A stretch of DNA of 35,045 nt, taken from Gallionellaceae bacterium (GTDB lineage Bacteria; Pseudomonadota; Gammaproteobacteria; Burkholderiales; Thiobacillaceae). The notes below the pieces were generated by a model. It was not told the DNA's origin and made no database searches. It worked only from the letters and a program-made list of their open reading frames with translations. This document shows, one piece after another, positions 2,838-19,631 of the stretch (its first letter is position 1; every line of letters begins with the position of its first letter). The stretch covers positions 8,878 to 43,922 of the forward strand of contig JAQVJE010000006.1 of assembly GCA_028695325.1 (NCBI GenBank), written 5' to 3'. A program made the position numbers and the translations under genes.

Positions 2838-3419
2838 ATGCTGGCCTTCATCGTCGTCGTACTCGGCGTCCTGCTGCTGACCCTGATCTATGGCATCTCG
2901 ATCTACAACAGCCTGGTGCAGATCAAGCACAACGTGAGCATGGCCTGGTCCAACATCGACGTCCTGCTCAAGCAGCGCCACGACGAGTTGCCCAAGCTGG
3001 TGGAGACCTGCCGGCAGTACAAGGAATTCGAGCAGGCCACCCTGGAACGGGTGACCGAGGCCCGCAGCCGGGTCCAGGAGGCGCGCGCGAGCCACGACGT
3101 GGCCGGCCTCGGCCTCGCCGAAGGCGCCTTGCGCGCCGGCCTGGGCCAGCTGTTCGCGGTGGTGGAGGCCTACCCGGAACTGAAGGCGAACGAACAGTTC
3201 ATGCAGTTGCTCAAGCGCATCACCGCCCTGGAGGACGCCATCGCCGACCGCCGCGAGCTGTACAACGACAGCGTCAACATCAACAACGTGCGCATCGAGC
3301 AGTTTCCCGACGCCATCGTCGCCGGCCTGTTCCGCTTCCGGCGCGCCCAGCTGCTGAAATTCGCCGAGGCCGAGATGGCCGATGTGGATATCAAGGCGCT
3401 GTTCGGTGGAAATGCGTGA
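2838..3419 (+). CDS. lemA: LemA family protein
   Basis: MLAFIVVVLGVLLLTLIYGISIYNSLVQIKHNVSMAWSNIDVLLKQRHDELPKLVETCRQY: N-terminal TM plus LemA signature. Start 2838 favoured by the upstream GGGAG; alternative start 2808. Confidence 0.92.
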   Translation: MLAFIVVVLGVLLLTLIYGISIYNSLVQIKHNVSMAWSNIDVLLKQRHDELPKLVETCRQYKEFEQATLERVTEARSRVQEARASHDVAGLGLAEGALRAGLGQLFAVVEAYPELKANEQFMQLLKRITALEDAIADRRELYNDSVNINNVRIEQFPDAIVAGLFRFRRAQLLKFAEAEMADVDIKALFGGNA

Positions 3420-3487
3420 CGGTCAGGGCGGGCCGGGTTTTCGTCACGCCGTTCCTGTCACGCTTTCTTTGTCACGCCGTTCACCCC

Positions 3488-4369
3488 ATGAAGCGCTACT
3501 GGCTGGACTGGCTGTCCGGGGGCGGCTACCTGATGCTGGTGTTCCTGGGCCTCAAGCTGGAATCGGCAGGCGCCTGGGCGGGCGTCGCCGCCGCCACCTT
3601 CGCCCTTGCCGTGCTCGCCTGGCAGATCAACCTGCGCCGCCAGCGCGCCATCATCGACACCCCGACCTCGCGCATCGCCTCGGCCGCTCAGGGCTACGTC
3701 GAGCTGGTGGGGGTCGGCCGCGCCTACGACGACCTGCCGGTGCTGAGCCCCACCCACCGGCTGCCCTGTCTGTGGTACCGCTACCGCGCCTACGTGAAGG
3801 ATAACGACAAGTGGCGCCAGACCGACATGGACGAGAGCGTGTCACCCTTCCTGCTCGACGACGGCAGCGGGGTGTGCGAGATCGACCCGACCGGCGCCGA
3901 GGTGTCGGCCAGCCGCAAGGAGACCTATGTCCAGGGCGAACACAAGGTCGAGGAGGAACTGCTCCTGGCCGGCGACCGGCTCTACGCCCTGGGTGAGTTC
4001 ATCAGCGACGGCGGCGGCCATGCCCGCTTCGACGAGCGCCGGGAGCTGGCCGACATCCTGAACGACTGGAAGGACTATCCGGACGATCTCAAGCGCCGCT
4101 TCGACCTGGACCGGAACGGCGCTCTCGACGAGCAGGAATGGCAGTTGGCGCGCGCGGCGGCGGAAAAGGAGATGGAGTCGCGCCGGGAAGCGGCGCGCAG
4201 CCGGGCGGTCAGCCACACCCTGAGCCGGCCGCGCCATGGCCGGCCGTTCCTGGTGGCCGCCTTCGCGCCGGAAATGCTGGCCGGGCGTTACCGGCTCAGG
4301 GTGTGGCTGCACGGCCTGGCTGGCGCGGCCAGCCTGGCCGGGCTTGCAGTGGCGTTGCAGGCGATCTGA
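3488..4369 (+). CDS. GIDE-domain (MULAN/E3-like) membrane protein with an EF-hand-like loop
   Basis: MKRYWLDWLSGGGYLMLVFLGLKLE (TM), TPTSRIASAAQGYVELVGVGR...LPCLWYRYRAY typical of GIDE proteins encoded next to lemA; DLDRNGALDEQE loop; C-terminal TM. Confidence 0.8.
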   Translation: MKRYWLDWLSGGGYLMLVFLGLKLESAGAWAGVAAATFALAVLAWQINLRRQRAIIDTPTSRIASAAQGYVELVGVGRAYDDLPVLSPTHRLPCLWYRYRAYVKDNDKWRQTDMDESVSPFLLDDGSGVCEIDPTGAEVSASRKETYVQGEHKVEEELLLAGDRLYALGEFISDGGGHARFDERRELADILNDWKDYPDDLKRRFDLDRNGALDEQEWQLARAAAEKEMESRREAARSRAVSHTLSRPRHGRPFLVAAFAPEMLAGRYRLRVWLHGLAGAASLAGLAVALQAI

Positions 4370-16764: not shown

Positions 16765-17859
16765 TTACGCGCTGGCGGGGCGCAGCACCAAACGCAGGTC
16801 ACCGCCCACGCGGGCGACATCGCGCAAGGCGAAGCCACGCCGCTCCGCCATGTCGGTCAGGGCAGGCAGGTCGAAGAGGCCGCGTGCATGGTGGCCTATG
16901 ACCATGGGCGCCATATAGGCGACCCATTCGTCGACCAGACCTGCCGCCAGCAGGGTGCCATTCAGGGTGGCGCCAGCCTCCACGTGGACCTCGTTGATGC
17001 CGCGCCGGGCCAGTTCCATGAGCAGCATAGTCAGACCCACCCGGCCGGCCGGGCCGGGCAGATGGATCACCTCGGCGCCGGCTGCCGCCAGGGCGGCCTG
17101 GCGGGCGGGGTCGTCAGCCGCGCAGGCGACGAGGACCCCACCACCGGCCAGGATGCGCGCCGTCGGCGGCGTACGCAACGTGCTGTCGACGATCACCCGC
17201 AGAGGCTGCCGGGCCGTCCCCTCCAGGCGCACGTTCAGCTCCGGGTCGTCGGCCAGGACGGTACCGGAGCCGGTCAGGATGGCGCAGGCGCGCGCGCGCC
17301 AGTGCTGCACGTCCGCGCGCGCCGACGGGCCGGTAAGCCATTTCGACTCGCCGTTCTCCAGGGCGGTCTTGCCATCCAGCGAGGATGCCGTCTTGAGCCG
17401 CAGCCAGGGCCGGCCGCGGGTCATGCGGGCGACGAAGCCGACGTTGAGTTCGCGCGCCTCCGCCTCCATCAGCCCCACCTCGGCCCGTATGCCGGCCAGG
17501 GTGAGGAGTTGGATGCCCTGCCCGGCCACCCGGGGGTTGGGGTCGGTCATGGCCGCCACCACGCGGGCGACGCCGGCGTCGATCAGTGCGTTGGCGCAGG
17601 GCGGCGTGCGGCCGTGGTGGCTGCACGGCTCCAGGGAGACATAGACGGTGGCGCCGCGCGCCCGCGCGCCGGCCCTGAGCAGGGCATGCACCTCGGCATG
17701 AGGCTCGCCGGCCCGTGCGTGCCAGCCCTCGCCGACCACCTCGCCGTCCCTGACGATGACGCAGCCGACCCGCGGGTTGGGGGTCGCCGTGTTGAGGCCC
17801 TGTTCGGCCAGGCGGATGGCGCGCGCCATGTGGCCGTGATCGGCGGCGGAAAAGCTCAT
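16765..17859 (-). CDS. ribD: Bifunctional riboflavin deaminase/reductase
   Basis: [60 protein letters not shown]...[29 protein letters not shown]. Confidence 0.96.
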
Positions 17860-18305
17860 TTATCGAGGTCGTCGATGACGTCGCGGAAATCGTCGACGTC
17901 CTGGAAGCTGCGGTAGACCGAGGCGAAGCGGATATAGGCCACCTTGTCCAGCTTGCGCAGGGCGTGCATCACCATCTCGCCCAGTGCGCGCGAGGGGATC
18001 TCGCGCTCGCCCAGGCTGAGCAGGCGCTGGCGGATGCCATCGATGGCCTCCTCCATCAACTCGGCCGACACCGGCCGCTTGTGCAGTGCGCGGCTGAAGC
18101 CCTCGCGCAGCTTGTCGACCTTGAAGTCCTCGCGGATGCCGTTGGCCTTGACCACCTGGGGCAGGCGGATGTCGGCCGTCTCGAAGGTGGTGAAGCGCTT
18201 CTCGCAGGACGGGCAGCGCCGACGCCGGCGGATGGTGGCGCCATCCTCGGACAGGCGCGTCTCGATGACCTGGGTGTCGGCGGCGCCGCAGAAGGGGCAT
18301 TTCAT
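17856..18305 (-). CDS. nrdR: Transcriptional repressor NrdR
   Basis: [42 protein letters not shown]: zinc ribbon plus ATP-cone; overlaps ribD. Confidence 0.97.
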
Positions 18306-18308
18306 TTC

Positions 18309-18388
18309 AGTGACAGAGTGACGAGTGACAGAGTGACGAGTGAGGGCTCCACGCCTTTGTCACTCGTCACTTTGTCACTTTGTCACTG
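18309..18388. repeat. GTGAC/GTCAC repeat hairpin between glyA and nrdR
   Basis: AGTGACAGAGTGACG repeated twice (18309-18338). 18309-18330 versus 18358-18379 form a 22-nt inverted repeat with one mismatch; the glyA stop lies inside. Confidence 0.9.
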
Positions 18389-19631
18389 CTCCATAGACGG
18401 GGAACTTTGCCGTCAGCTTGGCCACCTCGGCCTGGACGCGGGCGATCACCGCCTCGTCGTTGGGAGCGTCGAGGACGTCGGCGATCATGTGGGCCAGTTC
18501 CTCCGCCTCCGGCTCCTTGAAGCCGCGCGTGGTCATCGCCGGAGTGCCGATGCGGATGCCGGAAGTGACGAAGGGCTTCTGCGGGTCGTTCGGGATGGCG
18601 TTCTTGTTCACCGTGATGTGGGCGCGGCCCAGGGCGGCCTCGGCCTCCTTGCCGGTCAGGCCCTTGGCCTGCAGGTCGACCAGGAAGACGTGGCTCTCGG
18701 TGTGGCCGGAGACGATGCGCAGGCCGCGTTCGGTGAGCACCTTGGCCATGACGATGGCGTTGGAGCAGACCTGTTCCTGGTAGTGCTTGAATTCCTTCGA
18801 GGCGGCTTCCTTGAAGGCCACCGCCTTGCCGGCGATGACATGCTCGAGCGGGCCGCCCTGGAGGCCGGGGAAGATGGCGGAGTTGATCGCCTTCTCGTGC
18901 TCGGCCTTCATCAGGATGATGCCACCGCGCGGGCCGCGCAGGGTCTTGTGGGTGGTCGAGGTGACCACGTCGGCGTGCGGCACCGGGTTCGGGTAGACGC
19001 CGGCGGCGATCAGGCCGGCGTAGTGGGCCATGTCGACCATGAAGATGGCGCCGACTTCCTTGGCGATCCGGGCGAAGCGGGCGAAATCGATGCGCAGGGC
19101 GAAGGCGGAGGCGCCGGCGATGATCAGCTTCGGCTTGTGCTCGCGCGCCTTGGCCTCCATGGCCTCGTAGTCGATGTTCTCGTTCTGGTCGAGACCGTAG
19201 GCGACCACGTTGAACCACTTGCCGGACATGTTCAGCGCCATGCCGTGGGTGAGGTGGCCGCCCTCGGCCAGGCTCATGCCCATGATGGTGTCGCCCGGCT
19301 TCAGGAAGGCCATGAAGACCGCCTGGTTGGCCTGGGAGCCGGAGTTGGGCTGCACGTTGGCCGCCTCGGCGCCGAACAGCTTCTTGACCCGGTCGATGGC
19401 CATCTGCTCGACCTGGTCGACCCATTCGCAGCCACCGTAGTAGCGCTTGCCGGGGTAGCCCTCGGCGTACTTGTTGGTCAGCACCGAGCCCTGCGCCTCC
19501 ATGACCGCCGGGCTGGTGTAGTTTTCCGAGGCGATCAGCTCGATGTGGTCTTCCTGGCGGCGGGCTTCGCCCTGGATGGCGGCCCAGAGTTCGGGATCGG
19601 TATTCCTGATGGTGTGGTCGGCGGCGAACAT
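18375..19631 (-). CDS. glyA: Serine hydroxymethyltransferase
   Basis: [42 protein letters not shown]...[21 protein letters not shown]. Confidence 0.97.

Follow-up and report, generated by a model that had tools for sequence, protein, structure and literature searches.

The repeats between lemA and the following GIDE-domain gene are probably a worn copy of a dispersed, non-coding family of REP-like palindromes, whose copies would be placed at the DNA level at the 3' ends of genes and may there influence the mRNA. The window analyzed, a stretch of 35,045 nucleotides, belongs to a Thiobacillaceae MAG of 2.58 Mb in 261 contigs (hereafter G000). The features of the lemA-GIDE junction, in window coordinates, are the following:

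2838..3419, + strand: lemA (LemA family), the upstream gene (Pfam PF04011, E 2.7e-43)
3417-3419: the lemA stop codon TGA, overlapped by the left arm
3414..3421, + strand: left arm, the single surviving unit GCGTGACG (from the sequence, with its inverted partner identified)
3422..3441, no strand: element centre GTCAGGGCGGGCCGGGTTTT, which differs between copies (from the sequence)
3442..3456, + strand: right arm, unit 1, (C)GTCACGCCGTTCCT (sequence and Tandem Repeats Finder)
3457..3470, + strand: right arm, unit 2, GTCACGCTTTCTTT (sequence and Tandem Repeats Finder)
3471..3484, + strand: right arm, unit 3, GTCACGCCGTTCAC (sequence and Tandem Repeats Finder)
3488..4369, + strand: the downstream GIDE-domain gene (Pfam PF12483, E 4.5e-07; sequence)

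The first-pass annotation of this DNA had reported three 14-bp copies at 3443-3484, and both its letters and its coordinates are right; Tandem Repeats Finder called a period-14 array at 3443-3482. The inverted pairing it described is also present in the sequence, GCGTGACG (3414-3421) being the reverse complement of CGTCACGC (3442-3449) with the lemA TGA inside the left arm, as is the downstream ATG at 3488, which lies 3 nt past the last unit and is not preceded by a clear Shine-Dalgarno sequence. Within the window, lone GTCACGC heptamers show no enrichment (7 observed vs 9.3 expected), so the case stands on their arrangement. The element has 1+3 units at 13/14 spacing (type A, see below) and is a degraded member of its family, since its left arm keeps one unit only. 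The lemA TGA is probably the native stop codon rather than one donated by the element, because it occupies the same codon position in the element-free relative G001 (...LFGGNA* here, ...LFGGHA* in G001). A scan of the window with Rfam gave 0 matches above the gathering score.

The annotation had also proposed a repeat family rather than chance, and the host genome bears this out. The exact pattern GTCACGC-N7-GTCACGC occurs at 40 places in G000 vs 0 for the reversed pattern, and GTGAC-N2..10-GTGAC-N10..40-GTCAC gave 127/126 matches vs 0 for the reversed control. A covariance model for each of the two spacing types yielded 84 and 99 matches at E<=0.1, both strands counted. Of the 15 elements that a motif-agnostic detector picked up in 379 kb, every one was built on GTGAC; block-shuffled sequence gave 0. 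The further genomic copies that the annotation anticipated amount to 64 catalogued elements in G000 and at least 30 more in four relatives. Three pairs of near-duplicate G000 contigs (C174/C230, C176/C201 and C113/C183) carry the same elements and are probably strain variants in the MAG. At C14:11375 (L054:1400-1700), GTCAC-N6-GTCAC motifs adjoin an apparent IS630-type transposase end and may be an unrelated terminal repeat.

In its usual form, an element consists of four GTGAC units opposite four GTCAC units around a centre of 10-40 nt, and these canonical 4+4 elements span about 70-120 bp. In type B the units, GTGAC plus two or three purines, are spaced 7/8 nt apart (8-7-8), and in type A the unit is GTGACGCAAAGGC or similar, spaced 13/14 nt. 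The GTGAC pentamer is nearly invariant and the linkers are variable, a pattern partly built in by a catalogue selected on the pentamer; linker drift is confined to purines, and the spacing is fixed. A subset of type B centres carries a homologous core (16 pairs vs 0 in shuffles), which occurs in both orientations relative to the genes. This homology implies that the elements sharing it are copies of one ancestor. In a profile search across species for a common core hairpin, the result was no better than reversed controls, although the core is significant within G000.

Two arrays are expanded. At G000:C79 (L165:139-262), the 13-bp unit GTCACGCCCTTGC is repeated ten times in tandem as a one-sided expansion beside a class I (W/Y) tRNA synthetase gene, and at G000:C180 (L167:1497-1643), 15 heptamer units stand opposite 4 units; the latter array is a strong candidate for a length-polymorphic locus. 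Both show that slippage happens, but as a source of the whole family, chance or simple tandem slippage around stop codons is refuted by the genome-wide counts and has next to no probability left: reversed patterns and shuffles give zero matches, and facing arrays with a common core cannot arise from slippage alone.

The window holds a second member of the family, located as follows:

18310..18386, - strand: glyA-nrdR family member, type B, 4+4 units, spacing 8-7-8 / 7-8-8 (catalogue entry C56:27187)
18375..19631, - strand: glyA, serine hydroxymethyltransferase (Pfam SHMT, E 1.1e-167)
17856..18305, - strand: nrdR, starting shortly beyond the element (Pfam Zn_ribbon_NrdR and ATP-cone)

The two junctions had been described as sharing one architecture. 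Here the glyA stop codon falls within the element and nrdR starts just after it; the two elements are of different subfamilies (7/8 spacing here vs 13/14 at lemA-GIDE).

The placement of the elements relative to genes in G000 was taken from a simple codon-based gene caller. Both neighbours were callable for 61 of the 64 elements. Of these, 53 have co-directional neighbours, as the annotation had expected, 8 have convergent and none has divergent ones; of the other three, one is in an ORF and two are at contig edges. The background, drawn from 379 kb of large contigs, is 263/36/37 gene pairs (co-directional/convergent/divergent) and 18.5/2.7/7.3 kb of intergenic bases in the same order. The divergent share expected by chance over intergenic bases is ~28%, and the probability of 0 divergent cases in 61 is ~2e-9 by intergenic bases and 8e-4 by gene pairs. 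The relatives G003, G004, G006 and G009 gave 28 co-directional, 5 convergent and 1 divergent case, the last between a lipoyl synthase-like gene and cobW. As to the polarity stop-GTGAC...GTCAC-ATG, with which the annotation had described its family, the choice of gene pair is informative, but the order of GTGAC before GTCAC is not, because the element is its own reverse complement.

Stop codons are mostly inside the first unit or a few nt before it, and start codons mostly 0-25 nt beyond the last unit. A Shine-Dalgarno core precedes 9/41 downstream genes vs 108/246 elsewhere (p 0.0095, on predicted start sites). The genes adjoining the elements are unrelated housekeeping genes, and the occupied junctions include an Mrp-type ATPase gene with dcd, def-fmt, ftsH-folP, nadK-recN and glyA-nrdR. 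The element in an ORF, at position 3138 of G000:C23 (L055:1335-1865), is a complete 4+4 copy lying in-frame within an ABC-F-type ATPase gene, where it contributes ~25 residues after the second ABC domain and ahead of the C-terminal part.

This placement bears on the idea that the arrays are sites for a GTGAC-recognising DNA- or RNA-binding protein, so that the copies make up a regulon or a set that organises the chromosome (matS-like or TRAP-like). matS sites are chromosome-organising sites and share the GTGAC / GTCAC half-sites with the present family. A kept pentamer with linkers drifting within purines at fixed spacing, the 4+4 symmetry and the occurrence of GTGAC as a half-site of the E. 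coli matS motif GTGACRNYGTCAC (PMC6907758) are all consistent with bound sites. We nevertheless consider this explanation unlikely: a spacing of 7/8 bp fails to hold the sites on one DNA face, the divergent (promoter) regions are avoided, and the adjoining genes do not form a related set. Furthermore, the spacing and arrangement differ from those of matS, and MatP (PF06303) is absent from seven Thiobacillaceae genomes, the E. coli control being positive.

The comparison with relatives argues for addition of REP-like copies at the DNA level. In the other Thiobacillaceae for which the sequence downstream of lemA was read, lemA is never followed by a GTGAC array ahead of the next gene; the two genes are separated by a short spacer in G001 and joined by a TGATG overlap in G005. 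A further ~19 sites of G000 are without a GTGAC array in G001 and/or G002, so that addition is supported by array-free relatives at ~20 sites. At one of these junctions, def and fmt overlap by 4 bp in G001 and G002, and the element separates them in G000. Other junctions are shared: glyA-nrdR and ftsH-folP are also occupied in G003 and G009, and the recN, sixA and regA sites in G004. By GlyA identity to G000, G001 is the closer relative (95%, vs 90-91% for G003 and G009), and yet, where compared, it is without elements at junctions occupied in the more distant ones, which means that either G001 has lost them or the junctions concerned have been used more than once.

The family is lineage-restricted, occurring in some Thiobacillaceae. 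It is dense in G000, G004 and G009 and sparse in G003, G006 and G002, with the other members of the family Thiobacillaceae at background level. The B form was found in 0/368 other genomes sampled across the class, and the named records with type A are Thiobacillus MAGs, except for one Catellatospora site without an array cluster.

Array-free sites in relatives and a patchy distribution, together with palindromic ends and about 60 or more copies, would also suit a MITE derived from a known IS family, with the autonomous copy lost or hidden in an assembly gap. Indeed, dispersed palindromic repeats with array-free orthologous sites are a likeness to MITEs and to stem-loop sequence families in general. 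Several observations make this origin improbable. No signature of target-site duplication was detected (flank similarity 3.63 within elements vs 3.58 between elements), neither a transposase between the arrays nor a parent transposon with the same ends was seen at the junctions examined, and both ends are internally repetitive arms rather than one terminal repeat. In addition, the B array had no match in 2.9 million viral contigs. A phage vehicle was rejected on the same search.

Neither target-site duplications nor an autonomous partner were found, and two of the three genomes richest in the elements have no RAYT; we infer the mobility of the family from the empty sites only. The founder form of the palindrome probably had two facing arrays of about four pentamer units each around a short centre, ~70-120 bp overall, with GTGAC-RR/RRR units every 7/8 nt or GTGAC-GCAAAGGC-like units every 13/14 nt. 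A copying or mobilising activity, presumably acting in trans on the arrays, would have added copies at the DNA level to gene 3' ends, chiefly at tight operon junctions. Once inserted, a copy would displace the native ribosome-binding region and be transcribed, and the transcript could form a long hairpin that separates the upstream gene's stop codon from the following start codon. The likely effect would be altered mRNA end protection, processing or translational coupling between cistrons, as with REP elements elsewhere.

A related reading, to which we give a rather low probability, is that the elements are maintained as RNA hairpins, which loop out the inserted DNA, bring stop and start together and so restore coupling, or else insulate the cistrons. 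The position exactly between stop and start codon is consistent with this, as is the depletion of downstream Shine-Dalgarno cores given above. The hairpins are also strong: the median energy is -48.7 kcal/mol vs -27.2 kcal/mol for mononucleotide shuffles, and the glyA-nrdR hairpin is significant (z -6.4 to -8.0 vs shuffles). However, the lemA-GIDE copy shows no significant gain in folding over its shuffles (z -1.5). G-U and A-C mismatches occur equally often on the sense strand (97 vs 94, p 0.88), and an arm resembles its partner in the same element no more than it resembles arms from other elements. The absence of a G-U bias and of arm covariation means that there is no positive sign of selection on the RNA hairpin.

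Among known systems, REP elements occupy the same genomic niche. They are short extragenic palindromes near the 3' ends of co-directional or convergent genes, may donate stop codons and are sometimes found in-frame in ORFs (PMC3733652). As in the GTAG- and CGTC-tagged REP / BIME families, the Thiobacillaceae elements are extragenic palindromes in many copies on the transcribed side of genes. Unlike a REP, which is a single hairpin of 20-40 bp (criterion about 14-40 nt), they are facing tandem pentamer arrays of ~70-120 bp that hug the downstream start codon too. They have no GTAG; CGTC is present inside CGTCAC units and not as a one-sided end tag. The proposal that they are genuine REP elements, moved by a RAYT tyrosine transposase, is already largely refuted and very improbable. 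The niche is the same, and GTAG REPs, too, can provide stop codons and be found within ORFs (PMC3733652), but there is no GTAG end tag, architecture and length differ, and the search for RAYT (Y1_Tnp) genes gave one match in G009 but nothing in G000 or G004, which are among the three richest genomes. The cognate RAYT of GTAG REPs is missing in those two genomes; CGTC REPs are likewise without a dedicated RAYT.

The TAACTGA repeats of marine Beggiatoaceae are intergenic tandem heptamers directly 5' of start codons, and the regions that hold them have few canonical ribosome-binding sites (PMC4679880). They resemble the present family as intergenic heptad arrays at start codons of sulfur oxidisers, but they are one-directional, with one inverted case among 170 sets (PMC4679880), whereas the Thiobacillaceae arrays are nearly all facing and built of another unit. 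In the open-access literature, we found no description of facing pentamer or heptad arrays of this kind. The most fitting class for the family is that of REP-like palindromes, with a new architecture; it is a lineage-specific palindromic repeat whose build and placement depart from the described REP families. It fills the whole stop-to-start gap in operons, even parting the overlapping def and fmt, with no transposase of the kind that explains GTAG REPs, and it offers a testable system for studying how operons cope with hairpins inserted again and again between their cistrons.

Heptad palindromes with other units were also found. In the sister genome G002, co-directional gaps show an excess at lag 7 and lag 14, which was not found in G002 coding or divergent sequence, nor in G085. 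The intercistronic heptad arrays of this genome are mostly palindromic, with TCAGC/GCTGA, GTGAAGG, CAAGATG, GGGAAA and TTGCCCC units. G002 has a heptad palindrome of its own at 4/13 co-directional junctions that are GTGAC-occupied in G000 and at ~5/137 other junctions (p ~0.003), after by-eye removal of non-heptad-array or off-site matches from raw script counts of 6/15 and 6/138; this re-use is suggestive only. It is conceivable, and we put it forward tentatively, that the class is defined by architecture and not by sequence, as facing tandem heptads (period 7/8 or double) between an operon's stop and start, whose units are swapped between sister genomes as the junction stays occupied. If true, this would point to template-independent or recurrent copying, or to selection for the architecture as such. 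A turnover of unit sequences at junctions that stay the same, of which there is a hint here, would be relevant to the origin of such repeats.

Examples of the G002 heptad arrays are at L278:5089, L282:13797, L284:13907, L188, L215 and L198, some of them at junctions that are GTGAC-bearing in G000. G000, too, has arrays of GTGAG or CAAGATG units between cistrons, either palindromic or tandem, at L235:8972 and 18761, L228:12970 and L233:3630.
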